From positions 62,001 through 126,000 of the forward strand of contig JAGBHC010000031.1 in the NCBI GenBank assembly GCA_017935625.1: a DNA stretch of 64,000 nt, given 5' to 3'. Shown here piece after piece: positions 2,829-52,211 of this stretch. Made by a program: the position numbers and the translations under genes. Origin of the DNA: Rikenellaceae bacterium. Its GTDB lineage: Bacteria > Bacteroidota > Bacteroidia > Bacteroidales > Rikenellaceae. Under the pieces are notes generated by a model. The model was given only the letters and a program-made list of their open reading frames with translations. It was not told where the DNA came from and made no database searches. The stretch's first letter is position 1. Each line of letters begins with the position of its first letter.

Positions 2829-4007
2829 ATGAAAAAAAGTCTCGTTTCCCTCGCCTTCGGCGGCTTGGGACTGGGCATGACCGAGTTCGCGATGATGGGC
2901 GTGCTGCCCGACATCGCCGGCGACCTGCATGTCACCATTCCGCAGGCGGGGCATTTCATTTCGGCCTACGCGCTGGGTGTGTGCGTCGGGGCCCCGACGC
3001 TCATTCTGCTGGCCCGCAATCTGCCGCCCAAGCGCACGCTGCTCGCTCTGATGGCGATGTTTACGCTTTTCAATATCCTCTCCGCCCTTTCGCCCGGCTA
3101 CGGAACGATGCTGGTCATGCGTTTTCTGGCCGGATTGCCCCACGGGGCCTATTTCGGCGTGGGAGCCATCGTGGCCGGACGGCTCGCCGACGAGGGAAAG
3201 GCGGCGGAGGCGGTCTCCATCATGTTCGCCGGACTGACCGTCGCCAATGTGGCGGGGGTGCCGCTGGGGACCTACGTGGGCAATCTCTTCTCGTGGCGCT
3301 ACACCTTCCTGATGGTGGGGGCGTGGGGCTTGGTGACGCTCTGGTTTCTCCGCCGGTGGCTGCCCGTCGTGGAGGCGCAGCCCAGAAGCGACGTGCGCAG
3401 CCAGTTCCGCTTTCTGAAACTCCCCTCGTCGTGGGTGCTCATGGGGGTGACCATGCTCGGCAACTCGGCGCTTTTCAGCTGGTACAGCTACATCATGCCC
3501 ACCATGCGCAGCGTAGCGGGTTTCGGAGCCGACAGCGAGATGCTGATTATGATGGTCGGCGGAGCGGGCATGGTCATCGGCAATCTGCTGGGCGGAAGAC
3601 TCTCCGACCGGCTGACCCCGCAGCGCACCGAGCGACTGCTGCTGATACTGCTCACCGTGTCGCTCGCCGGTTCGTTCGCCCTGACCCATGTGCAGGCTGC
3701 GGCGCTTTGTCTGACGCTTACCGGGGCGGCGCTCGGTCTCTCGCTTTCGGCGCCGATGCAGGTGCTGGTCATCCGCAACGCCGATGCGGGCGGACAGATG
3801 CTGGCGGCCGCTTCGTGTCAGGTCTCCTTCAATCTGGGCAATGCCATCGGGGCCTATTGCGGCGGCCTGCCCGTGGCGGCAGGGATGGACTACACCTGGC
3901 CCGCGGCCGTGGGAGTCGGCTTCTCGGTGGCGGCTTATCTGCTGATGCTCTGTTTCAGGGCCCCTTATCCTGCCGACCGCTATGCGTGCGGCGAATCGTC
4001 GAAATGA
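2829..4007 (+). CDS. MFS transporter, AraJ-like efflux permease
   Basis: Predicted 392-residue inner-membrane carrier of the major facilitator superfamily, probably with 12 membrane helices in two halves. The N-terminus (GLGLGMTEFAMMGVLPDIA) and the loop RLADEGKAAEAVS resemble the AraJ / sugar-efflux branch. The substrate cannot be told from sequence. The start at 2829 is followed by a basic MKKS and a hydrophobic first helix. The gene ends nine bases before the YbaK gene, so the two probably share a transcript from the promoter at 2747. Confidence 0.88.
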   Translation: MKKSLVSLAFGGLGLGMTEFAMMGVLPDIAGDLHVTIPQAGHFISAYALGVCVGAPTLILLARNLPPKRTLLALMAMFTLFNILSALSPGYGTMLVMRFLAGLPHGAYFGVGAIVAGRLADEGKAAEAVSIMFAGLTVANVAGVPLGTYVGNLFSWRYTFLMVGAWGLVTLWFLRRWLPVVEAQPRSDVRSQFRFLKLPSSWVLMGVTMLGNSALFSWYSYIMPTMRSVAGFGADSEMLIMMVGGAGMVIGNLLGGRLSDRLTPQRTERLLLILLTVSLAGSFALTHVQAAALCLTLTGAALGLSLSAPMQVLVIRNADAGGQMLAAASCQVSFNLGNAIGAYCGGLPVAAGMDYTWPAAVGVGFSVAAYLLMLCFRAPYPADRYACGESSK

Positions 4008-4016
4008 TTTGCGTTT

Positions 4017-4499
4017 ATGGCTAAGATAAATAAGACCAATGCGGCCCGGCTGCTCGACCGGGCGGGCATTGCCTACGAACTGGTCCCCTATCGGGTGGAC
4101 GAAGAGCATCTCGATGCGTGTCATGTGGCCGAACAGCTGGGCGAGGACATCGCTTCGGTCTTCAAGACGCTGGTTTTGCGCGGCGACCGGACGGGACTTT
4201 TCGTCTGTGTCGTTCCGGGAGACCGGGAGGTCGATTTGAAGGCGGCCGCCCGCATTTCGGAAAACAAGAGCGCCGAGATGATACACGTGCGCGAACTGTT
4301 GCCGCTGACCGGATACATCCGGGGCGGCTGTTCGCCGATAGGGATGAAGAAGACGCTGCCGACCTTCTTCCATCGTTCCGCCGCAGAGCAGGAGCGGATA
4401 TATGTGAGCGCCGGTGTGCGCGGCCTGCAAATCGCCGTGGCTCCCTCCGACCTCATCCGCTTCGTCGGGGCCCGGGTGGGCGACCTGGTCTGCGAATAG
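4017..4499 (+). CDS. ybaK: Cys-tRNA(Pro)/Cys-tRNA(Cys) deacylase, YbaK family
   Basis: A 160-residue editing-domain protein that hydrolyses misacylated Cys-tRNA(Pro), protecting translation. Family signatures are the N-terminal KTNAARLLDRAGIAYEL, the segment VFKTLVLRGD, KAAARISENKSAEM with the conserved lysine region, and GYIRGGCSPIGMKK. Length is normal for YbaK (about 155-160). It follows the MFS gene after nine bases. Confidence 0.95.
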   Translation: MAKINKTNAARLLDRAGIAYELVPYRVDEEHLDACHVAEQLGEDIASVFKTLVLRGDRTGLFVCVVPGDREVDLKAAARISENKSAEMIHVRELLPLTGYIRGGCSPIGMKKTLPTFFHRSAAEQERIYVSAGVRGLQIAVAPSDLIRFVGARVGDLVCE

Positions 4500-4593
4500 A
4501 CGTCCCGTTCGAGGGCCGGTTCGGGGTCCGGCGGTCGGGGAACGGTATTCGGGGCCCGGCGTTCTGGAGCCGGACGTTGGCGTTCGGGGACAG

Positions 4594-4660
4594 AGTCCGG
4601 CATTCGGAGTCCGGCATTCGGAGTCCGGCGGTCCGTGTCCGTGTCCGTGTCTGTGTCCGG
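4594..4660. repeat. Short tandem repeats (14-mer, then hexamer)
   Basis: AGTCCGGCATTCGG is present twice in tandem from 4594 with a partial third copy at 4622, followed directly by about four copies of the hexamer GTCCGT (one GTCTGT variant). Noncoding microsatellite-like DNA. Confidence 0.75.
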
Positions 4661-4878
4661 GGCGGCGCGGGGTGCTCTTCGGTGTCCGCGGCCGGTGCTC
4701 GGAGTCCGTTGCCGGAGGCTGGATTCGCGGTCGGGCGCAGGGGAATATTCCGCCCGGTTCCGGAGCCGATGCGGGTGTCTGCGCTCCGCAATGCACCCGG
4801 CCGAAGGGCGAAAAGGGGGCTTCCCGGCCGGGGAAAATGAAGATTTGAGAGAAAAGAGTTATTTTTTTGTTCTTTTTC

Positions 4879-4909
4879 TTTGTCGGAAAGAAAAAATGCT
4901 ATATATTTG
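4879..4909 (+). promoter_or_regulatory. Promoter of tRNA-Asn
   Basis: TTTG (4879-4882), 19-base spacer, TATATTTG (4902-4909): a near-ideal Bacteroidetes promoter 55 bases before the tRNA. Confidence 0.85.
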
Positions 4910-4964
4910 CACTCCGAAATGAGACGGTAACTGCTTCGGCAGAGCCTCGCATTGGAATAGAAAT

Positions 4965-5038
4965 TCCTCAATAGCTCAGTTGGTTAGAGCACCTGACTGT
5001 TAATCAGGGGGTCCTAGGTTCAAGTCCTAGTTGAGGAG
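4965..5038 (+). tRNA. tRNA-Asn (anticodon GTT)
   Basis: Complete cloverleaf: acceptor TCCTCAA pairs with TTGAGGA, D-arm GCTC/GAGC, anticodon loop CTGTTAA with GTT at 4999-5001, and T-loop TTCAAGT. The discriminator is G. CCA is not encoded. Confidence 0.97.
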
Positions 5039-5041
5039 CGG

Positions 5042-5077
5042 AGCGGAAAGGTTATTTGACTTTTCCGCTTTTTTTGT
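5042..5077 (+). terminator. Rho-independent terminator after tRNA-Asn
   Basis: AGCGGAAA pairs with TTTCCGCT around a short loop, followed by a run of T from 5070. Confidence 0.85.
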
Positions 5078-5121
5078 TCCCGGAGGGGGGGGAGGTGCGG
5101 CCGGGAGAGAGGAGAGAAAGA

Positions 5122-5154
5122 GAGGGGTTGTCCGTCTCATCCGGACAACCCCTC
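5122..5154 (-). terminator. Terminator hairpin downstream of rubrerythrin
   Basis: Perfect 13-bp stem (5122-5134 with 5142-5154) and six-base loop, 47 bases beyond the rubrerythrin stop on the minus strand. The T-tract on that strand is weak (CTCTCTTTCTC). Confidence 0.65.
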
Positions 5155-5200
5155 GTCGTAGGGAGTGGCGCGGCATGCTCGGCCGCGCGGTGTGCGGGCA

Positions 5201-5743
5201 TCAGTAATTTTCGGCCTTGAGCTGGAAATAGCCCTGCGGGTGGGCGCATACGGGGCAGATTTCGGGGGCTTTCCTGCCTACGGCGATGTGGCCGCAGTTG
5301 GAGCACTGCCACAGGCAGTCGCCGTCGCGCGAGAACACCAGGTCGCCCTCCACGTTGGCCAGCAGCTTGCGGTAACGCGCTTCGTGTTCGCGCTCGATGC
5401 GTCCTACCTCCTCGAACAGTGCGGCGATTCGGGTGAATCCCTCTTTGCGGGCCTCCTCGGCGAATCGGTCGTACATGTCGGTCCATTCGTAGTTTTCGCC
5501 GTTGGCGGCGTCGAGCAGGTTGGTCGCGGTGTCGGGTACCGCATCTCCGTGCAGCAGCTTGAACCAGAGCTTGGCGTGTTCCTTTTCATTCTTTGCGGTT
5601 TCGGTGAAGAGGTCCGAAATCTGGACGTATCCCTCCTTTTTCGCTTTCGATGCGTAGTAGAGGTACTTGGTGTGTGCCATCGATTCACCGGCGAAAGCCT
5701 CCTGGAGGTTCTTCTCGGTGCGGGTGCCTTTCAGATTTTCCAT
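5201..5743 (-). CDS. rbr: Rubrerythrin
   Basis: A 180-residue cytoplasmic peroxidase that reduces hydrogen peroxide in anaerobes with electrons from rubredoxin-like donors. An N-terminal ferritin-like diiron domain shows the repeated ExxH pattern ([20 protein letters not shown] and IEREHEARY). The C-terminal rubredoxin-like domain has CSNCG and CPVC spaced by 12 residues, which bind one iron. This two-domain order and length are typical of classical rubrerythrin. It is a single gene between a terminator hairpin and its own upstream promoter and fits an oxygen-exposed gut anaerobe. Confidence 0.97.
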
Positions 5744-5903: not shown

Positions 5904-6465
5904 TTACAAATTTATTTTCGGATGATTTTCCCCGAAGCGTGCGGCTCGGTCTGCATATCGCTGATATATGGCGATATGTGTTCCGTCAGGGAGGCTTTCG
6001 GGAGTAAGCGGGATTCGGAAACAGACCGATGGCGGAGGAATGTCGTCGGAGATATTTCCGCTATGCGGGTGTCGGAGCGGGGAGCAAGCGGGCTTGGGGG
6101 GATTGGGGAGCAGGCGTGACGGGGCAAGTGTGACGTCGTGGTGTAGTGTGGCGGGCGGATTCGACGGTCGGCTGGCGAGAGGCCGAAGAAAGAGACAGGG
6201 CGGAATACAGGCTTGGGGAGCAGGCGCGGCGGAGGCAAGTGTGACGTCGTGGTGTAGTGTGGCAAGCGGGCACGGCAGTCGGCTGGAGAGAGACCGACGA
6301 AAGAGGCGGGGCGGAATGCGGGCGTGGGGAGCAGGCGTGGCGGGGCAAGTGTGACGTGGTGTAGCGTGGCAAGCGGGCACGGCAGTCGGCTGGAGAGAGA
6401 CCGATGAAAGAGGCGGGGTTGGAAGCGGGCCTTGGGGAGGATTCGGGGCGGTGGCCGGCAGAAAA
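5904..6465. other. Noncoding spacer containing a 110-bp tandem repeat
   Basis: Between the rubrerythrin promoter and the DUF2723 terminator. Long frames run through it on both strands, but the repeat period changes between copies (111 then 110 bases), so no frame is conserved. I see no gene. Confidence 0.6.
6124..6425. repeat. Three imperfect tandem copies of a ~110-bp unit
   Basis: Copies start at 6124, 6235 and 6345, each opening with GCAAGTGTGACGT followed by a GTGGTGTAG motif, GTCGGCTGG, AGA.ACCGA and GGGGAGCAGGCG-type blocks. The third copy decays near 6425. The unequal periods argue against coding. Confidence 0.8.
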
Positions 6466-6496
6466 GAGAGGCGCCCTTCGAAAGAAGGGCGCCTCT
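6462..6496 (-). terminator. Terminator of the DUF2723 gene
   Basis: Perfect 13-bp GC-rich stem (6467-6479 with 6484-6496) with a four-base GAAA loop, followed on the minus strand by TTTT. It lies 28 bases past the stop at 6524. Confidence 0.85.
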
Positions 6497-6523
6497 TCTC
6501 GGTCGTGTGCGCGGAGTGCCGGA

Positions 6524-9500
6524 TTAGACCTCCAGCGTGTCGAAATAGGTGTTGAGACGGTCGGCTATTTCGTCGCGGCCGTATTTGCGCGAAGTCTTGT
6601 AGAGCTCCCACAGAATCACCAGATTCTCCTGCAGGGCGTCCTCGACGTATTCGGCGAAGGCGCCGCCGAAACGCAGGTAGTAGTCGGCCTTCTCCATCAG
6701 ATTGTCGGCATAGGCGTTCAGCAGGGCGTCGCCCTTCTCGATGGCGTCGGCGTTGTAGTAGGCTTCGATGAGCGGCACCGTATTGAAATAGGTGTATCGG
6801 AGCTGGTCGAACGGATAGACCTCGATGGCCCGGTCGATGACCTGCTCGGCCCGCGGTTTGTCGCCCGCGGCGGAGAGCGCGTCGGCCAGTCGGGCGAATG
6901 CCTGGCGGACCTGTGCGGAGTTGAGGTTGTTCTGGATGAAGCTGTCGGCATAGGTGCGCTTGTCGGCGATGTTTCCGAAGCGGAAAGCCGCCTCGAAAGG
7001 TTCGCCGCTGCGGGTCTCGCCCATCAGACGCGGATAGAGGTAGTCGATGTCCACGCGCCCCACCTTCGCTCCGGTGACGGTTCCCTGCTCCTGCGGGGTG
7101 TAGATGGGAACCAGACGGAAGCAGGCGCCGTCGAACTGCATGTAGTCTCTGAGTCCGAGGTTGGCCAGCGAGAGGGTCTGCGTGAAGTAGAGCGGACGTT
7201 TCCAGTCGAAGTGGGCCAGCAGGTCGAGCAGCATCATCTCGTCTTTGCGCAGGCTGTTGCCCGTGATGTTGAGATAGAGGGTGTCGGCAATCAGATGGGC
7301 CTCCTCGGGGCGGACGATTCCGCTGGCCAGCACGTTCTCCTTGTTCACCGGAATGGCGATGTGGCGGGCGGGAACGATGTCCACCGACTTGTTCTCGTCC
7401 AGCTGGTATTGGGTGCGGGGCGAATCGCTGAGGATGAACTCCATCACCTGCGCGATGTCCACCGTGTCGCCGCCTACCAGGTCCTGCACCAGCAGCATTT
7501 CGTTGGTGCGGTTCACGTATTTGCTGCGCGGCAGGGAGAAGGGCACGGGGTCGGAGTCGTTCATCTTGCTCTTCTGCTCCTCGATGTACCAGTCGCCGCC
7601 CAGGTAGGAGAGGTTCATGACGCGGATGTCGGGGCGCACGCCCTCCACCTCCTGGTTGTACCACAGGGGGAAGGTGTCGTTGTCGCCGTAGTTCATCACG
7701 ATGGCGTTGGGCAGGGCCGACTGCAGGTAGTTGTAGCCGATGTCGCGGGCCACGTAGCGGTGGCTGCGGTCGTGGTCGTCCCAGTTCTGGGCGGCCAGTA
7801 TCACGGGTACGCAGCTGCATACGGCGGTGGCGGCCACGGCTCCCCACACGCCGCTCTCTTTTTTGCGCAGGGCCGAGAACATATCCTTGAACCACATGAC
7901 GCCCAGACCTATCCAGATGCAGAAGGCGTAGAACGAACCGGCATAGACGTAGTCGCGTTCGCGGGGCTCTCCGGGCGGGGTGTTGAAGTAGAGCACCATG
8001 GCGATGCCCAGCATGAAGAAGAGCCACAGCACGATGGCGAAGTTGCGCTTGTCGCGGTTGAGCTGGTAGACCAGGCCGATGATTCCCAGAATGAAGGGGA
8101 GGAAGTAGTAGGTGTTGCGCCCCTTGTTGCCGGCGATGTCGGCGGGCAGGTCGTCCTGCGGACCCAGGTAGAGCTCGTCGATGAAGCGGATGCCCGAGAG
8201 CCAGTTGCCGTCGGTAATCTGACCCGTGGACTGGATGTCGCTCTGGCGGCCCACGAAGTTCCACAGGAAATAGCGCCAGTACATGAAGTTGAGCTGGTAG
8301 CTGAAGAAGAAGCGCAGGTTCTCGCCGAAGGTCGGCACGGTGACCATCTGGTCGCCGTAGCGGATTTTACGGCCCTCGACCTGTCCCCACTTCTGATACT
8401 CGGCGGGATAGAAATCCTTGGCGGAGCTGTACATGCGGGGGAAGAAGAAGCGGAACTCGGAGGGGTATTCGTATCCGTTGAACTCCTGGTCGGAGGCGTA
8501 TTTGCCGTTGTCGTCGATGTAGTAGATGTCGCGGTATTTGATGGAGGTGACGGGCGACGAGTAGGCGGGGCCGAAGAGCTGCGGCTGGCTGCCGTACTGG
8601 TCGCGGTTGATGAGCCGCAGCAGGCCGTGGGGGTTGTCGGGGTCGTTGCTGTTCATGGGCGGATTGACCGAGGCGCGGATGACCACCGAGGCGTAGGAGC
8701 CGTAGCCCAGCAGGATGACCGTGACGCAGAGGGCGATGGTGTTGAGCAGCACCTTCCCTCTCTTATAGGTGAACCAGACGGCCCAGCCCATCAGGGCGAA
8801 GAGGGCGAAGACGAAAAAGATGAGGCCGCTGTTGATGGGCAGTCCGAAGACATTGACGAATATCCGGTCGAAAAAGGCGGCTATGGCCACCGTGTAGGGC
8901 ATGATGACGGCGTAGATGGCCAGCAGGATGGCTCCCGAGGCCAGGGTGGCTTTCACCACGCCGCGCCAGGTGACGCAGTCCGACTTGCGGAAGTAGTAGA
9001 TGAAGACCAGCGCCGGAATGGTGAGTAGGTTGAGGATGTGGACGCCTATCGACAGACCCATGAGGTAGGCGATGAGCACCAGCCAGCGGTTGGCATGGGG
9101 CTCGTCGGCCACGTTCTCCCAGCGGAGCATGGCCCAGATGACCAGCGCCGTGAACATCGACGAGAGGGCGTAGACCTCGCCCTCGATGGCCGAGAACCAG
9201 AAGGTGTCGGTGAAGGTGTAGGCCATGGCGCCTATCACGCCGGCGCCTATCACGGTCCAGCTCTCCGCTGCGGTGAGCTGCTCGGGACGCTTGCGGTAGA
9301 TGCCGCGGGCCAGGTGGGTGATGGTCCAGAAGAGGAAGAGGATGGTGAATGCGCTGGCCGTGGAGGACATGGCATTGACCATCGCCGCCGCATACTCGTT
9401 GCCGGGCGCGAAGATGGTGAACAGACGCGATATCATCATGAAGAGCGGCGCTCCGGGGGGATGCCCCACCTCCAGCTTGAAGGAGATGGCGATGAACTCG

Positions 9501-9610
9501 GCGCAGTCCCAGAGACTGGTCGTCGGCTCCATGGTGAGCAGGTAGACTACGGCCGCGGCGAGGAAGACGAGCCAGCCGACCAGAAGGTCGTATTTACGGA
9601 AATAGTTCAT
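6524..9610 (-). CDS. DUF2723 multi-spanning membrane protein (TMEM260-like)
   Basis: A 1028-residue integral membrane protein of the Bacteroidetes DUF2723 family, a GT-C-fold family related to TMEM260-type O-mannosyltransferases; its exact acceptor is not known to me. The start MNYFRKYDLLVG at 9610 is preferred over an in-frame upstream ATG because the extra 28 residues are arginine-rich. Signature segments are MEPTTSLWDCAEFIAIS, KLEVGHPPGAPLFMM and the acidic loop residues near the first helix. The N-terminal half has about ten hydrophobic helices. A large periplasmic/soluble C-terminal part (about residues 640-1028) ends with alanine-rich TPR-like helices. It is transcribed alone. Confidence 0.9.
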   Translation of the reverse strand: MNYFRKYDLLVGWLVFLAAAVVYLLTMEPTTSLWDCAEFIAISFKLEVGHPPGAPLFMMISRLFTIFAPGNEYAAAMVNAMSSTASAFTILFLFWTITHLARGIYRKRPEQLTAAESWTVIGAGVIGAMAYTFTDTFWFSAIEGEVYALSSMFTALVIWAMLRWENVADEPHANRWLVLIAYLMGLSIGVHILNLLTIPALVFIYYFRKSDCVTWRGVVKATLASGAILLAIYAVIMPYTVAIAAFFDRIFVNVFGLPINSGLIFFVFALFALMGWAVWFTYKRGKVLLNTIALCVTVILLGYGSYASVVIRASVNPPMNSNDPDNPHGLLRLINRDQYGSQPQLFGPAYSSPVTSIKYRDIYYIDDNGKYASDQEFNGYEYPSEFRFFFPRMYSSAKDFYPAEYQKWGQVEGRKIRYGDQMVTVPTFGENLRFFFSYQLNFMYWRYFLWNFVGRQSDIQSTGQITDGNWLSGIRFIDELYLGPQDDLPADIAGNKGRNTYYFLPFILGIIGLVYQLNRDKRNFAIVLWLFFMLGIAMVLYFNTPPGEPRERDYVYAGSFYAFCIWIGLGVMWFKDMFSALRKKESGVWGAVAATAVCSCVPVILAAQNWDDHDRSHRYVARDIGYNYLQSALPNAIVMNYGDNDTFPLWYNQEVEGVRPDIRVMNLSYLGGDWYIEEQKSKMNDSDPVPFSLPRSKYVNRTNEMLLVQDLVGGDTVDIAQVMEFILSDSPRTQYQLDENKSVDIVPARHIAIPVNKENVLASGIVRPEEAHLIADTLYLNITGNSLRKDEMMLLDLLAHFDWKRPLYFTQTLSLANLGLRDYMQFDGACFRLVPIYTPQEQGTVTGAKVGRVDIDYLYPRLMGETRSGEPFEAAFRFGNIADKRTYADSFIQNNLNSAQVRQAFARLADALSAAGDKPRAEQVIDRAIEVYPFDQLRYTYFNTVPLIEAYYNADAIEKGDALLNAYADNLMEKADYYLRFGGAFAEYVEDALQENLVILWELYKTSRKYGRDEIADRLNTYFDTLEV

Positions 9611-10009
9611 AAGAAAACGGTTCGTTAAGAAAAACAGTCGTTGCCCGACGCCGGTCCTAACGCAGGGGCGGGGGCGTTTATTGCGCGGACGCACGGCGCG
9701 GCCGCCTCAAAACGCGACAAAATTAGCAAAATAACTCCGGCTTTGAAAGTCCGCAGCCGAACTTTGTCCGAAAAAGGCAATGATGTATTTCTTTTTTCTA
9801 TTCTCCGGGCTTTCCGCCGGCCGGAGACGGCTGGGGCGGTCGGGTGTCGGAGACCGGGCGCTTATGGAAGGTGCTTCGGGCGGCGGGGATGCGTTTCCGT
9901 TTCGGGAGGATGGCTTGGGGGCGTTTCGGGAGGCGCTTCCGCTCCGTTTCGGGAGGTGCGGGTCGCCGGCGCGGGCCCGTGGATGGGGCGGGTGTCCGGG
10001 GCGGGCGGG
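9611..10009. other. Intergenic spacer between queG and the DUF2723 gene
   Basis: About 400 GC-rich bases with no supported gene. It holds the promoter of the DUF2723 gene near 9718-9748. The remainder is G-rich on the plus strand with no clear structure. Confidence 0.55.
9718..9748 (-). promoter_or_regulatory. Promoter of the DUF2723 gene
   Basis: Minus strand: TAATTTTG at 9725-9718, with TTTC at 9748-9745 after a 19-base spacer. It lies about 110 bases before the start at 9610. Confidence 0.6.
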
Positions 10010-23000: not shown

Positions 23001-23646
23001 GTGTGTATGTGCGACGCCCGGTGCGGTGCCGCCGGCCTTCCTCCTGCGTTCGGTTCCTCCTGCGTCCGGTCATACTGCACCCGGGCGAGCGGATGCAAGT
23101 CGCTCTTTCCCACGTGATTTCGCTCTGCAGAATTTTCCACCCTCCTCCACGGGATTCTGTTCCGCAGAATTTCCCTTTCTTCTCTACGGGATTCCGTCTT
23201 GCAAAATTTTCCTTCTCCTCCACGGGATTTTGCTCCGCAGGATTTTCCTCCCTCCACCATGGGATTCTGTCCCGAAAAAATTTCCTCTCTCCCACGGAAT
23301 TTTTTCTTGCGGAAAATTCCCTCACTTCCAAGGGATTCTGTTCCGCAGAATTTCACCTCCCCCACGGAATCTCGCCCGAAGAGCCGGTTCTAACCCCGTG
23401 AACCGGATTGGCCTCCGGCATTCGCTGCGCTTTTTCTCGCTTGTCCCGCATCCACGGCTTCGTGCCGGCTGTTTCCGTGGGGAAGCATGCAAGCGGGTTT
23501 GCCTTTGCGCTGGCACATTCCGCAATCCACGGCTTCGTGCCGGCTGTTTCCGTGGGGAAGCATGCGAGCGGATTTGCCTTTGCGCTGCTTCCATTCCGCG
23601 ATTTTCGGCCTCATACCGCATTCCTGCCCGGCAAAATGCAAACAAG
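23001..23646. other. Repeat-rich noncoding spacer
   Basis: Holds two separate families of tandem repeats and no supported gene. Frames on both strands show 12- and 25-residue periodicities only because the DNA repeats are near multiples of three; the minus-strand frame would also run through the tRNA-Lys gene. Confidence 0.65.
23120..23385. repeat. Seven degenerate tandem copies of a 36-37-bp unit
   Basis: The core CCGCAGAATTTTCC then CTCCACGGGATTCTG recurs with cores at about 23127, 23164, 23201, 23237, 23272, 23309 and 23345. Copies are contiguous, without spacers, so this is a minisatellite and not a CRISPR array. Confidence 0.8.
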
Positions 23647-27194: not shown

Positions 27195-27671
27195 GGGAGT
27201 CGTCTGTTTGTCGGCGGGGCGGAGCCGGGACGCACGGATGCGTGCGGAGCCGGGCGCGGAACCTTTTGGCCGGAACCGGTTCGGCGCAAAAACCGTACCT
27301 CGTGCGGCATCCCGCAGTGCGGGCGGGCGCGGGGGCGGAAGACGGGGCGGAGAGCGGAGAGACGGGTAGGAGGCGAGAAATAGTGAATAGTGAATAGGGA
27401 ATAGTGAATAGGGAAGAGGGAAGAGTGAATAGGGAAGAGTGAATAGTGAATAGGGAAGAGGGAAGAGGGAAGAGTGAAGAGGGAAGAGGGACTAGGGAAT
27501 AGGGAAGCGGGAAGAGGGAAGAGGGACGAGGGAAGAGGGAAGAGTGGGGTCGGTACGGGACGCCCGGGGAAAAGCATTGCGCCCCTCCCGGGCGGGGAGA
27601 GGCGCAACATTCGGATTTGCGGATGGCCGGGCCGAATCCGCCGCACGGCGGAGCCGCGCCGGATGCCGGCA
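27195..27671. other. Spacer with purine-rich low-complexity repeat
   Basis: No gene. The middle is a long GGGAAGAGTGAATA-type repeat; the flanks are GC-rich. I see no promoter with both boxes for the decarboxylase homologue. Confidence 0.6.
27377..27545. repeat. Purine-rich microsatellite (GAATAGTGAATAGG / GGAAGAGG units)
   Basis: About 170 bases built from 7-8-base units GTGAATA, GGGAATA, GGGAAGA and GAGGGAA in varying order, almost pure purine plus T. Such tracts are prone to length change by slippage. Confidence 0.85.
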
Positions 27672-42865: not shown

Positions 42866-42910
42866 GTGGGCCCAGTAGGGCTTGAACCTACGACCCCCTG
42901 ATTATGAGTC
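42866..42910 (-). repeat. Attachment site (left), 45-bp duplicate of the tRNA-Met 3' part
   Basis: Identical to 52136-52180. It covers the tRNA from the 3' end of the anticodon arm to the discriminator base. It lacks the 5' half and so is not a functional tRNA gene. Confidence 0.93.
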
Positions 42911-43012: not shown

Positions 43013-43038
43013 TTGTTTTCCCGATATTCCTTGCTTTT

Positions 43039-43059
43039 GTGTGTACATTGTGTGTACAT
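43039..43059. repeat. Arm-type repeat pair, left end
   Basis: GTGTGTACAT twice (43039-43048 and 43050-43059), 11 bases start to start. The same pair occurs at the right end (52068-52088). Confidence 0.7.
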
Positions 43060-43100
43060 ATTTGAAGGTGGCAATCGAAAATTCAAAAATTTAACAGACT

Positions 43101-44327
43101 ATGAACTACGCAAAAGACGGCATAACGGTGGCCGTTATGCTCGACAGCCGACGGCCCGGAAAAAACGGACTTTGCCCGGTAAAAATACGGGTTACCTACC
43201 AGCGGGAAAGGCAATACTACCCCACGGGCAAGACCCTCGCCCCGGAACAGTGGGCCATACTTCCGACCAGCAGGACCCGTACAATGCTCGACGTGCGCCG
43301 GGACCTGGAGAGCAGCTACCAAATCGTGCGTAATACGGTCGAGGAGCTGGCCGCCGCCGGCCGTTTTTCTTTCGATGCGCTCAATCGCCGCCTGAAAAGC
43401 GGGGCGGCCGACTCCGTCAATACGATGTTCAGGGCCAAAATAGAGGCCCTGAACAAGGCGGGACGCGTCGGCAGTATGCTCGTATACAAAAATGTTTTGG
43501 ACAACCTGGAGCGCTTCGGAGGAGGCCGCATAAAGCCCGTCGCCATCACTCCCGGCTGGCTCGAGCGGTTCGAGCGCTTTTTGAGAGACGAAGACAAGAG
43601 CCAAACGACGATTGCCATCCACCTGCGCCACCTGCGCGCTATCCTCAACGAGGCCAAAAGGGCCGGGGCACTCCGGGAGGCGCAGTACCCGTTCGGGCGC
43701 GGTCGGTATGAAATACAATCCGGGGAGGGTCGGAAAATGGCCCTTACGCTCGAACAGATAGGCCGGATTGCGAAATATGACGACGGGAGCCCGGCAACGG
43801 CAAAATACCGGGATTACTGGCTGTTTCTTTACCTGTGCAACGGCATTAACGTGGCGGACTTCATCAAGTTGAGGCGCCGGGATATCCGGGACGGGGAGAT
43901 ATGTTTCGTCCGTCAGAAGACCGAACGGACGACCAAGGCACGCAGGGAAATCCGCGTTACCCTCACCGAGCCTATGCGGCGTATCATCGACAAGTGGGGC
44001 GGCCCTGCGGATGCGGACGCCTTTCTGTTTCCGATACTGAACGGAACCGAAGACGCTTTCACCCTCAAGCGCAAAACGAAAGAGCTGACGAGGGCCATAA
44101 ACAAACGCATGTCCGCCGTTGGGGCCGCACTCGGTATCGGCCGTATCTCGACTTACACGGCCCGCCATTCGTTCGCCACCGTGCTGAAGCGTGCCGGGGC
44201 GAATATCGCCTATATTTCGGAGTCTTTGGGGCATCAGGACCTGAAAACGACGGAGAACTACCTGGCAGGCTTCGAACGGGAGGAGCGACAGAAAAACGCG
44301 GAACTGCTGCTTCCTCCGGTTCTTTAA
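43101..44327 (+). CDS. int: Tyrosine recombinase (integrase)
   Basis: A 408-residue site-specific recombinase that integrates and excises the element. It has an N-terminal arm-binding region (about 1-90), a SAM-like core-binding domain (about 105-200), and a C-terminal catalytic domain. Visible catalytic residues are Arg355 in YTARHSFATVLKRAG, His378 in SLGHQDLKTT and the nucleophile Tyr387 in ENYLAGF. The first-arginine region reads CNGINVADFIKLRRRDI, with Asn250 where many integrases have Arg, as in a common Bacteroidetes subgroup. It starts 190 bases inside the left attachment site, as usual for tRNA-targeting elements. Confidence 0.95.
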   Translation: MNYAKDGITVAVMLDSRRPGKNGLCPVKIRVTYQRERQYYPTGKTLAPEQWAILPTSRTRTMLDVRRDLESSYQIVRNTVEELAAAGRFSFDALNRRLKSGAADSVNTMFRAKIEALNKAGRVGSMLVYKNVLDNLERFGGGRIKPVAITPGWLERFERFLRDEDKSQTTIAIHLRHLRAILNEAKRAGALREAQYPFGRGRYEIQSGEGRKMALTLEQIGRIAKYDDGSPATAKYRDYWLFLYLCNGINVADFIKLRRRDIRDGEICFVRQKTERTTKARREIRVTLTEPMRRIIDKWGGPADADAFLFPILNGTEDAFTLKRKTKELTRAINKRMSAVGAALGIGRISTYTARHSFATVLKRAGANIAYISESLGHQDLKTTENYLAGFEREERQKNAELLLPPVL

Positions 44328-44522
44328 TGCTAATTGTTGATAATAATTTGATAACCAGTGGTATAAAACAAAACGTGACTCGAAGGCCCCCTTTTGAGTC
44401 TTTATATTAGCGAGGTCCCGATAGTACCGGGGTCAAGACGGAAATAGGCTTTTCCCATCTTTATTATGAAGAGGCCCCGGGCGCCCACGTTGGGTGGCGG
44501 TAAAAACCTCGTTAAAAAAACT

Positions 44523-44867
44523 ATGAAAAATTTTAATTCTTCTGAGAATGACCTTCGCGCCATTGTCCGCGAGGAAGTCAGGGCGGCCCTGTCCCCGAAA
44601 GGGCGGGCGCCTCAACCCGAAGCGCGAGAGGTGCTCAACCTGGAGGGCGCCCTGCGCCTGCTCGACGAGCTGGGCGTACCCTTGACGCGTAAAACCGTCT
44701 ACAACCTTACCACCGACCGGGCTATTCCGTACCGTAAGAACGGGCGGCGGCTCGTTTTCTCCCGCCGGGAGCTTACGGCATGGGTGGATGCCCGTATGGT
44801 AGCCCCCTCCGAAAGTAGAAAGGCCGCTGCGTTGAGGCTGGCACAAAACGCAAACTTAAAACGCTAA
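44523..44867 (+). CDS. Helix-turn-helix excisionase-like protein
   Basis: A small DNA-binding protein of 114 residues. The start MKNFNSSENDLRAIV at 44523 is preferred over an upstream in-frame ATG (44466). A MerR/Xis-type winged helix-turn-helix lies in the middle: LNLEGALRLLDELG, then LTRKTVYNLTTDRAIPYRKN and RRLVFSRRELTAWVDARM. This pattern is standard for Bacteroidetes element excisionases. It probably helps the integrase at the arm sites. The next gene starts seven bases later. Confidence 0.85.
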   Translation: MKNFNSSENDLRAIVREEVRAALSPKGRAPQPEAREVLNLEGALRLLDELGVPLTRKTVYNLTTDRAIPYRKNGRRLVFSRRELTAWVDARMVAPSESRKAAALRLAQNANLKR

Positions 44868-44874
44868 AAACAGC

Positions 44875-45456
44875 ATGGACAACGTAAAAAAGCCCGCCCC
44901 CGCGACGAACAGCGGAAACGGGCAAAGTGTAATCGACAGAGCCAACGACAAAAGTAAAGACAATTTTCCAAACGGGCAACAGCCGTCCCCCTATTTCGAC
45001 GAGTACGAAAACGGGCTGATAGACATCTACGCCCCCGGGCGGGTACGCCGTTTTCTCTTCGTCTCGCCGTTCTTGCAGCAGATGGACATGCTGGAGTTTC
45101 CCGTCCACCGTCGGGACGACGACTCGCCGTGCCAACCCGTACGACGCGTACAGCTGGCTCCGCCGCCTCTCACTTGGAATGTGAGGGACAGACAGAACAA
45201 GGCCTACGAAACCCTCGACTGTGTCGAGTTCACGCGAGTCATTGCGCCTATACTGGGCGTGGCTCCCGTTCTTTACCGCTGGGATATAGTAGACGGGGAT
45301 ACCACCGAGGCGGAGGCCGAGGAGTGGCGCCGCGACTTCTGGCAGGACCTGTGCGTGCCCGACCAGCTGATGGGTGCGCGGGAGGCTCTATACATCTGGG
45401 AGGACGGCCACAAAACTCCATCTGACCTAAGAGGAGGGGGCGTGATATGGCTATAG
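44875..45456 (+). CDS. Unknown protein of the mobile element, 193 residues
   Basis: I do not recognise the family. It is hydrophilic, with a Lys/Asn/Gly-rich N-terminal 40 residues. A globular middle (VRRFLFVSPFLQQMDMLEFP) and an acidic tryptophan-rich segment (TTEAEAEEWRRDFWQDLC) follow. There is no signal peptide or membrane segment. Its last ten bases overlap the primase-helicase start, so it is co-transcribed and probably coupled. Position suggests a replication accessory or regulator. Confidence 0.7.
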   Translation: MDNVKKPAPATNSGNGQSVIDRANDKSKDNFPNGQQPSPYFDEYENGLIDIYAPGRVRRFLFVSPFLQQMDMLEFPVHRRDDDSPCQPVRRVQLAPPPLTWNVRDRQNKAYETLDCVEFTRVIAPILGVAPVLYRWDIVDGDTTEAEAEEWRRDFWQDLCVPDQLMGAREALYIWEDGHKTPSDLRGGGVIWL

Positions 45457-47987
45457 GACAGACCGGGGAGAAAAGCGCCGCACCGGCGGCGCTCCTCCAT
45501 ATCTCGGAACTCAAAAGCCCGAAGAACCTGGGAACCGTCCGCCCCCTGGCCGTAACGTGGCGGGAGTTCGTCGGGCGTTTCCGGAAAGCCCGAACTGCAG
45601 ACAAGGGCGCGGCGGGGGCTTATGTTGGCGCACGGCTTAAAGACGGCAAGCGGTGCCGGGCCTCTCTTCTCGACGCGTCCCTGTTGTCTCTCGACTTCGA
45701 CGGCGGGGCGGTCATGGACGACGTAGATTTGGTGCTCGGCTGCTTGCCCTACTCCTATCTGATTTACCCCTCCCACAACCACGGGATAGCCAAAGACGGG
45801 GCCCCGGCCTGCGACCGGTTTCGCGTGGTCATACCGCTCAGCCGCCCGGTCAGCCGGGAGGAGTACGGGCGCCTGTCGCGGCGGCTTCTGGAGCAGCTGG
45901 GGAACCCGGAGGTAGACCGCACGTGCCTGGACGAGCCGGAGCGGCTTTTCTACTATCCGACTCGACCGGCCGGGGAGTCCTACGAGCCCCGTATCTATGA
46001 CGAAGACTGCGTTCCGCTCGACGTCGATGCGGTGCTCGCTTCGTGTATGTCCTCTATTTCGCACGGAAACGGCTTAAAAATCGATTCAAATTCGAAAGAC
46101 GATAAATGTATCAACTCGGAGGGGAACGATGTAATATCGGCCTTTAATGGCGTTTTCGATATTCACGAGGCTATCGCCGAATTTTTGCCCGAAACCTACG
46201 TGCCCTGCCCGGAAAGGGGAGATGCGTACTACACCTACGCCGCCGGCACTACGACGGGCGGCCTGTGTGTGGAGCCGGACGGGCGGCGGGCCTACTCCCA
46301 CCATAGCAGCGACCCGGCCAGGACCGGGTATTGGGTGAATGCGTTCGACCTGGTCCGCCTCCACCTGTTCGGCGAACTCGACAAGGGGCTGCCCGACGGC
46401 ACACGGATGGGAGAGCGGCCCAGCTTCCGGGCTATGACCGAGAAAGCGGAGAGTATACCGGCCGTGCGGGAGGCTCTCTGGAAGGCTCGGGTGCGGGCCG
46501 CGCTGGCCGACTTCGGCAGCGAGCCGGATTCGACGTTCCCCGCTGAAGACGGCAGGACGAGCCCGGCGGGTACTTCGTCCGTCCGTGCCGCTCTGGAGCG
46601 TGCCTTGTGCTTTAAGGACCGGCCCCCTTCCGGGGAGCGGGAGTCGTGGGGCAAACCGTCGGACCGTCTGGTCGCCGACAAGGCGGCGGAATGGCTCCTC
46701 AAGGCCGGCGAGGCAACGGGAGCTCCTTTCCGGTACTATTCGGAGACGCCGGGCGAAAGAGACAAGGCGAACGGGTTCCCCGTCATCTTCACCGGTACGC
46801 ATTGGGAGCGTGTCGGGGGCGCCTGGCTGCGGCGCGCGCTGTCGGGGGCGGCCGGGGCCGTAGGGTTTCCCCCGCTCTGTTGCCGGGCCGCTCCCGTGCT
46901 GGACCTGGCCGTCCGGCAGTTTACGGAACGCGCCGGTGCGTTCGACCGGATGCGTATCCCGGAGGGGGCTTTCTTTCGGGCAAACCTGCTCAACGGAACT
47001 CTGACCATAACGGAGCGGGGGGAGACTTTCGAGGAGCACGACCCCGCGGACGGCTTCCGATACGTGCTGCCTTTTGAATACGACCCGGGGACCGGCTGCC
47101 CGGTTTTCCGGAAGTTCTTCGACCGGGTTCTGCCTCAACCCGACGCGCAGCTGGTTCTAATGGAGCACGTCGCGGTGCTTTTCTGCGACGGGTTCAAGCA
47201 GGAGCGGCTGCCCGTGCTCTACGGGGACCAGGGGGCGAACGGCAAGAGCACCTTTGCCGAGCTGGTGAAAGACCTGGTGGGCGGTCTGGCCTCGTCTTTC
47301 TCGCTGGGGCAGCTTACGACCCCGGAGAAGTCGTGGTATCGCAAGGAGCTGCTCGGCTGTCTGGTGAATATCTGCTCCGAGCTCGACGGTGTCAAGAGTC
47401 TGGAGATATTCAAGCAGCTGGCCAGCCGGGAGTGTATCGCCGCCGAGAAGAAAGGGGGCACTCCGGCGACGATGTGCGGATATGCCCGGCTGTTGATATG
47501 CACGAACAGCCTGCGGGGGATGGGGCAGATGGACAATGCCGCCCGGCGCCGCGTGCATGTCTTCCCCTTTACCGAGAGTATTCCCGAGCACGAGCAGGAC
47601 CGGCAGCTGCGCGACAAGCTCCGCAAGGAACTGCCGGGCGTATTCGCTCTGGTTGCGGAAGCCGCACGGGGGCTTATCGGGCGAAAGGGCCTGCACTCTC
47701 CGTCCGAGACGCTGAAAGAGAGCGGGCGCATGCTGCTAATGGAGACGGACAGCTTTTACGCCTTTGTCGAGGAGCGGTGCGAGTATGTTCCGGGGGCTGT
47801 GTTGCCGCTGTCGGGGCTGCTCGCGGAATACGACGCCTATTGCCAGGAGGAGGGCTACCCCGCGGCACGCGCCGACGCGTCCCGGCGCAAAAGGCTCTCC
47901 GCGGCTCTCGTCAAGAAGTTCGGAGACCCGGTAAAAAGATACGCACGAAACGGTACCGTTTTCGCGGTACGGGTCCGAAACGAGTGA
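45447..47987 (+). CDS. P4-type primase-helicase
   Basis: An 846-residue replication protein. The N-terminal part has archaeo-eukaryotic primase hallmarks: SLDFDGG (Asp83, Asp85), YPSHNHG (Ser109-His110) and CDRFRVVIPL. A zinc- or DNA-binding middle follows. The C-terminal superfamily 3 helicase has Walker A GDQGANGKSTF (about 593-603), an NICSELDGV Walker B-like segment, the sensor LLICTNSL, and TDSFYAFVEE in the winged-helix tail. The same order occurs in the alpha protein of satellite P4, which melts and primes its own origin. The iteron array lies 110 bases after its stop. Confidence 0.88.
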   Translation: MAIGQTGEKSAAPAALLHISELKSPKNLGTVRPLAVTWREFVGRFRKARTADKGAAGAYVGARLKDGKRCRASLLDASLLSLDFDGGAVMDDVDLVLGCLPYSYLIYPSHNHGIAKDGAPACDRFRVVIPLSRPVSREEYGRLSRRLLEQLGNPEVDRTCLDEPERLFYYPTRPAGESYEPRIYDEDCVPLDVDAVLASCMSSISHGNGLKIDSNSKDDKCINSEGNDVISAFNGVFDIHEAIAEFLPETYVPCPERGDAYYTYAAGTTTGGLCVEPDGRRAYSHHSSDPARTGYWVNAFDLVRLHLFGELDKGLPDGTRMGERPSFRAMTEKAESIPAVREALWKARVRAALADFGSEPDSTFPAEDGRTSPAGTSSVRAALERALCFKDRPPSGERESWGKPSDRLVADKAAEWLLKAGEATGAPFRYYSETPGERDKANGFPVIFTGTHWERVGGAWLRRALSGAAGAVGFPPLCCRAAPVLDLAVRQFTERAGAFDRMRIPEGAFFRANLLNGTLTITERGETFEEHDPADGFRYVLPFEYDPGTGCPVFRKFFDRVLPQPDAQLVLMEHVAVLFCDGFKQERLPVLYGDQGANGKSTFAELVKDLVGGLASSFSLGQLTTPEKSWYRKELLGCLVNICSELDGVKSLEIFKQLASRECIAAEKKGGTPATMCGYARLLICTNSLRGMGQMDNAARRRVHVFPFTESIPEHEQDRQLRDKLRKELPGVFALVAEAARGLIGRKGLHSPSETLKESGRMLLMETDSFYAFVEERCEYVPGAVLPLSGLLAEYDAYCQEEGYPAARADASRRKRLSAALVKKFGDPVKRYARNGTVFAVRVRNE

Positions 47988-48096
47988 CACCGGGAAAACG
48001 GATACGGGGGCTGCACTTACGGTGCGGCCCCTTTTTTCTTGGGGTCGCGGGCCTGTCTGTCGTAATGTGCTGAAAAACAACGGATAGTGGGAGAGC

Positions 48097-48356
48097 GTGA
48101 AGATGCGGTGAAGATGATGTGAAGATAGTACGGGGGTTAAGTTATTGACAATCAACACATGTTAAGATGTGAAGATATTTTCAATACTTTATACACGCGT
48201 GAGTGATATGTGTTTTATCTCTTACGTCTTATTTATCTGCTTTTTTTTCTTTTTCTCACGCGTAGAAGTGTAGAATATCTTCACATCTTAACATGAATTG
48301 ATATACAGATAGTTAAGGTGTGAAGATGCCCCTTTTTATCTTCACCGCATCTTCAC
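48097..48356. repeat. Iteron array, candidate replication origin of the element
   Basis: Eight copies of GTGAAGAT: forward at 48097, 48108, 48119, 48169 and 48320, reverse at 48277-48284, 48338-48345 and 48349-48356. The first three are exactly 11 bases apart, as are the last two. A perfect 22-base inverted repeat (48158-48179 with 48274-48295) encloses an AT-rich 94-base core. That core has a nested inverted ACGCGTGAG (48195-48203) / CTCACGCGT (48255-48263). Iterons plus an AT-rich core next to a primase-helicase mark an origin. Confidence 0.8.
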
Positions 48357-48736
48357 ACTCGGCGGCTTCTGACTCCGCATCCCCGGAAAATGTTATAAGT
48401 ATATAATACTTATAACATAATTTTTTTTTCGGCTTTTTTCGAATTTCCAACCACACAAGACAAGTCCGGCCCCGCATCGGGCGGGGGTTTCGAAATCGGG
48501 CGGGAAGAGGGGCGGCGATACCTTATTATTTATTGTCCCATCCAATGGGAACCGGGTGGGGTGTACTCCTCTAATGTGGGAAAAGCCTGCGCGAGCACGA
48601 CAGGCCCGTGCCGAAATGTGGCGAACCCCCGCGCGAAAACAGCGAGGGCCCCGCCGCAGCGGAGCCCCTCCCCTCAGATAGGCTGCTCTTTGTTTTCGCC
48701 GTTCTGCCCGCTTGGGGGCCCCGACGACCGGCGCCC
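48357..48736. other. Noncoding remainder between origin and antirepressor
   Basis: Holds the palindrome at 48390-48418 with its T9 tail and otherwise GC-mixed sequence. No gene supported. Confidence 0.55.
48390..48429. terminator. Perfect AT palindrome with T9 tail
   Basis: 13-bp perfect stem (48390-48402 with 48406-48418), ATA loop, then AA and nine T. It may end transcription from the replication genes or be part of the origin. Confidence 0.65.
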
Positions 48737-49594
48737 CTATTCCTGTTCTTTGCCGGCCTTTTCGAGCTGTGGGGCGTCCTTACCTGCCAGCACCTGTTTT
48801 GCGTTTACGGGAGATATGACCGAGCGCCCCAGCTGGGCTTCCAGTTGTCGCCGGGCCGCCTTTGCGACACTGCCACCGCTTTTCGCGACTTTTGCGTTTT
48901 GCTGGAATCCTTTGGGCCTCTGCTGCCTGGAAATCTCAGTTACCGAGGCTTCGGCCAGCGTATTGAGCGCTAATTCGACGTTGGTCATGTTGTCGCGCAG
49001 ATTCTCTTTTTTCAGCCCTTTGTATTGCTTGTAGGCCTTTGTCGTCCGTCCGGCCCACTCCATCGTTATGATATCGGTAAGGGTGGCGTATTGCTGTCCC
49101 TCGATTCCCCGCCGCTGCCACTCGTCCGTCAGTTCCTTGCGCACCTCCATGCTTTTCAAACGCTGGTTTATCCAGTTGTCCGAATATCCCAACCGTTTGT
49201 AATCGGTCATCGCCTGGCCGATAGACAGCTCGGGGTCCTGCATCTGGTCAAGACGGTCGGCGGCGACTTGCGCCATCCATTGTTTGAACGGTTCGGCCTT
49301 GGGCGACGGTATGGACTGAATCAACCGGAAAAGCTGTTCGGAGTCTGCAACGTCTGTGAGGCGCATTTTACCGTCGGCGGCGGGCAGTTTCAAAGCGTGA
49401 CAATTTGTCACGGTTTCGTTTCCCTCCTCGATTAGCCGCTGTTTGAGCTTGCGCCAGTATGCCTGCGGGTTGGTGCTGTCGGTCAGGGCGCCGATTACAT
49501 CCACGACAGAGAAGTACCACCGTTCGGCCTCGTCGTCCCAAACGGTACGTACTTTTCGCTGCTCGAATAATTGTATGGCTTGCTTCTGTGTCAT
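48737..49594 (-). CDS. BRO-N-type phage antirepressor-like protein
   Basis: A 285-residue protein with an N-terminal BRO domain: FEQRKVRTVWDDEAERWYFS, VVDVIGALTDSTNPQAYWRKL, and LTDVADSEQLFRLIQSIPS. The C-terminal part is helical and charged (WAGRTTKAYKQYKGLKKENL, then a Lys/Ala/Gln-rich tail). Such proteins counteract phage repressors or respond to DNA damage (DinD-like). It is in an operon with the small repressor upstream, four bases apart. It probably controls the switch between integrated and replicating states. Confidence 0.85.
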   Translation of the reverse strand: MTQKQAIQLFEQRKVRTVWDDEAERWYFSVVDVIGALTDSTNPQAYWRKLKQRLIEEGNETVTNCHALKLPAADGKMRLTDVADSEQLFRLIQSIPSPKAEPFKQWMAQVAADRLDQMQDPELSIGQAMTDYKRLGYSDNWINQRLKSMEVRKELTDEWQRRGIEGQQYATLTDIITMEWAGRTTKAYKQYKGLKKENLRDNMTNVELALNTLAEASVTEISRQQRPKGFQQNAKVAKSGGSVAKAARRQLEAQLGRSVISPVNAKQVLAGKDAPQLEKAGKEQE

Positions 49595-49597
49595 GCT

Positions 49598-49840
49598 TTA
49601 CCCCCTTTCCTTAATCTCCAGCACCGTTCCGCATTTCGGGCAGACAATCGTGTTCGACTTCGGCGTAAAGAGTTCCGATACCTCGACATTCAAAATATCA
49701 GCTATTTCTTGCAGTCGCTTTAAGGGCGGGTTCCCGTTGTCGCCAATAGCAATGCTTAACCCCGTTTCAGTCATTCCAAGACGTGCCGCCAATTCTTTGG
49801 CAGTCATTCCCCGCTCCTTTAATAATTCTTTGACTCTCAT
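49598..49840 (-). CDS. Small XRE-type repressor with a C-terminal zinc-ribbon half
   Basis: An 80-residue protein. Residues 1-60 form a lambda-Cro/XRE helix-turn-helix (LLKERGMTAKELAARLGMTE, LKRLQEIADILNVEVSELF). It ends with CPKCGTVLEIKERG, a single CxxC knuckle that could bind zinc as a dimer. It is the likely repressor of the element, next to divergent promoters and followed by an antirepressor-like gene. Confidence 0.88.
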   Translation of the reverse strand: MRVKELLKERGMTAKELAARLGMTETGLSIAIGDNGNPPLKRLQEIADILNVEVSELFTPKSNTIVCPKCGTVLEIKERG

Positions 49841-50313: not shown

Positions 50314-50631
50314 ATGAAAAGACAAGATTTATCGACCATCATGCGCCGGGCGTGGCAGATTGCCCGGGTTACGGGCAAGGCGTTCGCCGTGGCCCTCTCG
50401 AAGTCGTGGCAGCTCTACCGGCTGACCAAACAAATGCGGGCCGGCTTGGTGCGGTTCGCTTACGAAAAGGCAGACGGCACGCTGCGCAAGGCCGTAGGAA
50501 CGCTCCGAGACACGGCGGCGCTGGTCAAGGGTACGGGCCGTCCCGACGACGGGCGTACGGTCAGGTATTACGACGTTGAGGCGCAGGGCTGGCGCTCGTT
50601 CAGGGCCGAGAATTTTGTGGTCGTGTATTGA
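50314..50631 (+). CDS. Small DUF2693-like protein, 105 residues
   Basis: A basic helical N-terminus (about 1-45) is followed by KADGTLRKAVGTLRDT and RTVRYYDVEAQGWRSFRAEN, which resemble the small SH3-like DUF2693 proteins found on Bacteroides mobile elements. The function of that family is unknown. It lies 48 bases after the previous gene. Confidence 0.65.
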   Translation: MKRQDLSTIMRRAWQIARVTGKAFAVALSKSWQLYRLTKQMRAGLVRFAYEKADGTLRKAVGTLRDTAALVKGTGRPDDGRTVRYYDVEAQGWRSFRAENFVVVY

Positions 50632-52061: not shown

Positions 52062-52067
52062 TTTTTC

Positions 52068-52088
52068 GTGTGTACACTGTGTGTACAT
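52068..52088. repeat. Arm-type repeat pair, right end
   Basis: GTGTGTACAC (52068-52077) and GTGTGTACAT (52079-52088), again 11 bases apart, mirroring 43039-43059 in the same orientation. Confidence 0.7.
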
Positions 52089-52098
52089 AGACAAAGAA

Positions 52099-52132: not shown

Positions 52133-52135
52133 CAG

Positions 52136-52180
52136 GTGGGCCCAGTAGGGCTTGAACCTACGACCCCCTGATTATGAGTC
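52136..52180 (-). repeat. Attachment site (right), within tRNA-Met
   Basis: Exact 45-base match to 42866-42910. Here it completes the tRNA gene, so insertion keeps the tRNA functional. Confidence 0.93.
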
Positions 52181-52211
52181 AGGTGCTACTAACCAACTGA
52201 GCTATGGGCCC
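52137..52211 (-). tRNA. tRNA with CAT anticodon (Met, or Ile2)
   Basis: Acceptor GGGCCCA pairs with TGGGCCC; anticodon loop CTCATAA holds CAT (52176-52174), and the T-loop is TTCAAGC. It is an elongator-type tRNA, not initiator; a lysidine-modified tRNA-Ile(CAT) cannot be excluded by eye. It is the integration target of the element. Confidence 0.93.

Follow-up and report, generated by a model that had tools for sequence, protein, structure and literature searches.

A probable replication origin with two inverted iteron sets next to the primase-helicase gene of a satellite-like integrative element in Bacteroidota

The initiator of P4 (the alpha protein) binds short iterons. PICI origins are located after pri-rep, which is sometimes a fusion, and are composed of two inverted iteron sets around AT-rich DNA; the origin of EcCICFT073 has been tested with pri-ori plasmids, and the organization has been described as "shared by ... 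no other known bacterial replicon" (PMC6092414). It has been reported that SaPI Rep and SCCmec Cch2 use their C-terminal domains to bind iterons immediately 3′ of the genes that encode them (PMC7581432). A different arrangement was described for pRN1, in which the essential element is a stem-loop of 100 nt (stem, 21 nt; loop, 58 nt) that lies 3′ of the gene for the fused primase-helicase (PMC4234260).

In this study, we analyzed a 64-kb stretch of DNA from a Bacteroidota genome (referred to below as the window). The segment at 48097-48356 is very probably, judging from its sequence and that of its relatives, the replication origin of a 9.3-kb integrative element resembling a phage satellite. 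The limits of the element are exact 45-bp direct repeats (42866-42910 and 52136-52180), and it is integrated in a tRNA-Met gene; attL (42866-42910, + strand) repeats the 3′ part of that gene and attR (52136-52180, + strand) lies within the intact copy (52135-52211, − strand). The gene order is integrase, HTH_17 protein, an unknown protein, primase-helicase, the iteron array (mid-way along the element), Bro-N, a Cro-type regulator, and small genes. The tyrosine integrase (43101-44327, + strand; 408 aa) matches Pfam PF17293, PF13102, and PF00589. The HTH_17 protein (44466-44867, + strand; PF12728) is excisionase/AlpA-like, with a weak match to PHROG excisionases. The predicted initiator is a fused primase-helicase of 846 aa (45447-47987, + strand; D5_N, DUF5906, PHROG 256/1156, TIGR01613). 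A Bro-N antirepressor-like gene (48737-49594, − strand; PF02498; PHROG 15286, E 2.6e-117) is convergent with it and is followed by a Cro/CI-type HTH regulator (49598-49840, − strand; PF13443/PF01381), which is directed opposite to 49990 (+ strand). A divergent master repressor is a feature of PICIs. The small genes include a WYL_2 protein (50314-50631, + strand; PF10902) common to the sister elements. No phage structural or lytic genes and no terminase gene were identified among the ORFs of the element scanned with Pfam and PHROGs, and PADLOC gave no match to defense genes among its small ORFs. Members of the Bro-N protein's family were found in 36 of the 268 host-family genomes, mostly at 53-87% identity, and also in short unannotated human-gut phage contigs. 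Elsewhere in the window, outside the element, a 7-bp motif (GAAGAGG) is repeated in tandem about 22 times, in degenerate form, at 27392-27544, and diverged tandem repeats of period 37, 73, 75, and 110 bp cluster at 23110-23587.

The array begins 110 bp past the stop codon of the primase-helicase gene, between convergent gene ends, in agreement with the original prediction, which had located it directly after that gene. A terminator-like site of the helicase transcript (48006-48037, + strand; 12-pair stem with 8 GC pairs, T-run) lies ahead of it, although about one site of this kind is expected by chance in the region. No promoter signal above chance was detected at the array. Because it is positioned 3′ of the terminator-like site and between convergent genes, the array is more likely to act as DNA than as a promoter or transcript. 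An Rfam scan of the element matched its tRNA alone and thus gives no indication of a known structured RNA.

Exact copies of GTGAAGAT occur eight times in 48097-48356, five on the + strand and three on the − strand. The left set (48097-48126, + strand) has three copies in 11-bp steps, starting at 48097, 48108, and 48119. The right set (48320-48356, − strand) has copies at 48320 (+), 48338 (−), and 48349 (−), the last two again 11 bp apart and the first oriented opposite to the remaining right-hand sites. Between these sets are two 22-bp arms with the sequence CATGTTAAGATGTGAAGATATT, at 48158-48179 (+ strand) and 48274-48295 (− strand), which are perfectly complementary. The left arm carries GTTAAGAT at 48161 and GTGAAGAT at 48169; the right arm carries an inverted iteron at 48277 and GTTAAGAT at 48285. 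As a one-mismatch iteron (GTTAAGAT) thus abuts an exact one (GTGAAGAT) in each arm, the arms are partly built of iterons. Taken together, two inverted iteron sets (48097-48176 and 48277-48356) enclose a core of 94 nt (48180-48273), the predicted melting region, which has a GC content of 33% vs 60% across the window and contains a nested 9-bp inverted repeat, ACGCGTGAG (48195-48203/48255-48263). The eight sites, the perfect 22-base arms, and the AT-rich core with its nested repeat had all been noted in the original prediction and were recovered here. The near-palindrome is prolonged by an outer 23-bp pair (48093-48115/48338-48360, 96%). Just right of the array (48390-48418) lies a perfect AT-rich palindrome of 13 bp with a run of T behind it, perhaps a terminator or a further element of the origin.

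This arrangement is far from random. The whole window contains 14 copies of GTGAAGAT vs 1.45 expected, and same-strand pairs 1-20 bp apart were found nowhere else in the 2.2-Mb genome. The inverted-iteron score of 7 exceeds the maximum of 4 in 2000 dinucleotide shuffles of the region, the longest inverted arm (22 bp) exceeds the 12 bp seen in 1000 shuffles, and the inner palindrome folds strongly as single-stranded DNA (z −9.5). Similarity searches with the array DNA gave nothing, or weak matches to a short AT-rich part, among phages and plasmids, and only short weak matches among genomes of the bacterial family. Scans of viral contigs with iteron patterns gave match numbers that, for the 16-base pattern, are those expected by chance.

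Support for an origin comes from the 3′ flanks of homologous genes. Many of those of the first 20 homologues contain two inverted short-repeat sets around AT-rich DNA, and the repeats themselves differ (CTACATT, GTAAACG, TAGGGAT, ATCCCAT, TTTTTCA). An inverted-iteron test (a 7-mer in two or more copies followed by two or more copies of its reverse complement, all inside 430 bp) was devised after these 20 flanks had been viewed and was left unchanged for the later sets. The first set, with the window included, gave 8 positives in 21 flanks vs 0.84% of background windows. A set collected by the helicase domain, in which three loci repeat the first set, gave 32 in 154 vs 1.5% of background windows; after removal of duplicates the figures were 20/129 vs 4/1290 shuffles, and 109 of the 129 flanks thus fail the strict test. 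Collection of homologues by the N-terminal domain gave 39 positives among 53 clusters and, with stricter duplicate removal, 38 among 50 distinct phage homologues. Other intergenic gaps and other gene ends in the same loci served as controls and were rarely positive (2/94 and 3/229; Fisher p = 8e-22 and 1e-32, respectively), as were shuffled flanks (2/500). The claim of an iteron origin beside the primase-helicase gene is strongly backed by this comparison. Phage Sfi21 was used as the positive control: across 20 kb (456 windows), every window that scored positive overlaps the origin annotated in the record, a 302-bp feature directly 3′ of the primase gene.

Distant relatives keep the two-set architecture with other repeat sequences, and what is conserved across the homologues is, on this comparative evidence, architecture without sequence. 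Spacing is part of what varies. The 11-bp phasing emphasized in the original prediction is real in this array, but it is no general rule: neighboring iterons in the homologues are most often 9 bp apart (69/137), with 11 bp in 10/137, and helical phasing was rejected as a rule. A conserved priming site at ACGCG in the core was also considered and dropped, since CGCG shows no clear excess in the homologous flanks (0.84 per flank vs 0.57 in one set, 1.06 vs 1.29 in the other).

Long inverted arms are enriched in the homologous flanks, which raises the question of whether the palindrome itself is the functional element. As in a pRN1-type origin, the 22-bp arms might extrude a cruciform or stem-loop that the primase-helicase recognizes by shape, with the iterons less important. 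The strong fold of the inner palindrome and the enrichment of long arms are consistent with this, as is the pRN1 stem-loop, which is needed 3′ of the fused gene without having a conserved sequence (PMC4234260). Yet the usual finding in homologous flanks is separated tandem iteron sets, not a single long stem, the arms are themselves partly iterons, and a stem does not need the outer sites spaced by 11 bp. We regard recognition mainly by shape, the closest alternative, as rather unlikely; its probability overlaps that of the origin reading, because the stem-loop is a variant within it, and the two modes can be combined.

Sister elements in the same bacterial family keep parts of the gene set, with the intervening module swapped. 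Two of them, L279 and L280, have counterparts of the integrase (69% and 66% identity, respectively) and Bro (86% and 83%), and also of HTH_17, Cro, and WYL_2. A related helicase is encoded in both L280 and L292, with a CTACAT-type array at the same place. In L279 the place of the primase-helicase is taken by genes for DnaB, tape-measure, and GP3 packaging proteins (3889-5301, 6256-9321, and 9318-9815 of that locus), which points to phage satellites; such a tape-measure/packaging module was not found in the element studied here, and GP3_package is absent from this genome assembly. The relatives L176 and L195 are Alistipes. The sister elements possibly constitute a family of phage satellites of Alistipes whose modules can be exchanged.

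The module exchange also bears on what else the array could be. Its repeated, inverted, operator-like sites are close to regulator genes and might form an operator or silencer for the Cro-type HTH or Bro protein of the element, controlling transcription. We find this very improbable: convergent genes end on either side of the array, the promoter signal there is not above chance, phages with other neighbors have equivalent arrays 3′ of primase-helicase genes, and L278, L279, and L281, with the same Bro gene and another module, have no inverted-iteron window. A recombination site, such as arm sites for integrase or excisionase, is extremely improbable. It is true that repeats in 11-bp steps are likewise present at the probable integrase arm sites of the element, where two TGTGTGTACAT sites 11 bp apart lie beside attL (43037-43060, + strand) and sites of the same type and spacing adjoin attR (52067-52089, with one TGTGTGTACAT at 52078). 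But the att sites, with these TGTGTGTACAT sites of their own, are 5.2 and 3.8 kb from the array, and L279, whose integrase is 69% identical and whose replication module is different, shows no inverted-iteron array. An att-arm role was rejected by position and by the separate arm-like sites.

Packaging signals are needed by satellites, P4 possesses a crr site, and in some plasmids copy number is controlled by pairing of iterons; the array might therefore be a packaging (cos/pac) or copy-control (crr/incompatibility) site instead of an initiation site. This seems very improbable, since its position and architecture fit origins rather than packaging sites, the element has a single such array, and no terminase gene was identified among its scanned ORFs. 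Incompatibility could be a secondary effect of an iteron origin.

The predicted initiator supports assignment of the array as an origin. Its helicase half scores 109.6 vs a cut-off of 108.7 with NCBIfam TIGR01613 ("phage/plasmid primase, P4 family"). An AlphaFold model of this half (residues 430-846; pLDDT 80) has as its top VIA match the SaPI5 primase-helicase 7ola (Z 24.4, rmsd 4.2, 355 residues), followed by the primase-helicases of African swine fever virus and poxvirus, and a profile search agrees (7ola, E 7.9e-21). On the strength of the modeled fold and the profile match, the initiator appears homologous to SaPI Rep in its helicase half. The N-terminal half gave no Toprim match in Pfam. 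Residues D83xD85 and H110/H112 are invariant among five homologues, a pattern that we take to be the one expected of an AEP primase-polymerase; the best match of the modeled structure is the S-2L PrimPol domain, although weak (E 9.5e-4). The assignment of this half as an AEP-like primase is tentative because the model is poor (pLDDT 59). No helicase relatives above 38% identity were found, and when the protein alone served as query, neither viral nor genome contigs gave close ones.

The origin reading is thus favored because the two-set organization recurs 3′ of homologous genes, including at the annotated Sfi21 origin, and because the helicase half folds like SaPI5 Rep and the array is organized like PICI origins. 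In the proposed scheme, the element would excise and then circularize. The fused primase-helicase (45447-47987) would recognize the GTGAAGAT iterons, probably via its C-terminal domain, and assemble as two rings facing opposite ways, on the left set and on the inverted right set. Melting of the AT-rich core would follow, the helicases would load, the N-terminal primase-polymerase domain would prime, and replication would probably proceed both ways. Two inverted sets fit the loading of two helicase rings, and bidirectionality is probable; copy control through iteron pairing, raised in the original prediction as a possibility, is speculation.

The array belongs to a known kind, for which a PICI/Sfi21-type origin rather than that of P4 is the closest fit. 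What may be new is a PICI-type origin in Bacteroidota satellites, together with evidence that this organization is widespread in phages with this type of initiator and not exclusive to PICIs; in the open-access literature, at the level of titles and abstracts, none was found reporting a PICI-like origin in Bacteroidota satellites or beyond PICIs. The comparison questions the exclusivity of the origin organization to PICIs. It is reasonably likely that an inverted two-set iteron origin 3′ of the primase-helicase is a general type for this initiator family, in phages and in integrative elements including Bacteroidota satellites, with no status as a PICI hallmark, and that the geometry is retained although the repeat drifts freely, presumably together with its cognate C-terminal DNA-binding domain. 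If the repeat drifts and the geometry persists, origins could be located from sequence alone, and the comparative test would be a simple way of doing so in phages and satellites with this initiator type. The primase-helicase and array would make up a compact replicon of about 3 kb in a gut Bacteroidota lineage, placing PICI-like replication in elements for which the satellite literature examined reports none.

Comparison with pRN1 orf904 shows a large stem-loop in each case 3′ of a fused primase-helicase gene (here a 22-bp stem, z −9.5); the pRN1 functional element is, in the part of the description consulted, a stem-loop (PMC4234260), whereas iteron sets are prominent here. The P4 likeness proposed in the original prediction stands for the helicase half, which is above the cut-off of the P4-family model TIGR01613 (109.6 vs 108.7). 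It does not extend to the N terminus, where no match to Toprim, the primase of the alpha protein, was found and the modeled half is weakly AEP PrimPol-like, or to the ori/crr arrangement, as a single array with no second crr-like array was seen; architecture and closest fold are of the PICI/SaPI and Sfi21 type. Sfi21, a Streptococcus thermophilus phage (NC_000872), likewise has a non-coding region of 302 bp 3′ of its primase with inverted iteron pairs around AT-rich DNA. It differs in its iteron (TTAGTTAC, 8-bp spacing), in being a full phage, and in having its primase and helicase recorded as separate frames; the identity is only 23% over 236 aa. With PICIs and SaPIs the likeness, at the level of organization, is in an array directly 3′ of a fused pri-rep with iteron sets flanking AT-rich DNA, and in a helicase of the 7ola fold. 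Unlike the PICIs, the element has perfect 22-bp inner arms, a Bacteroidota host, a length of 9.3 kb vs 12-15 kb, and no recognized packaging or interference gene. Like them, it is a small integrative element that encodes a Y-integrase, regulators, and an excisionase-like protein, has att repeats (45 bp, in tRNA-Met), and is free of phage structural and lytic genes among the ORFs scanned.
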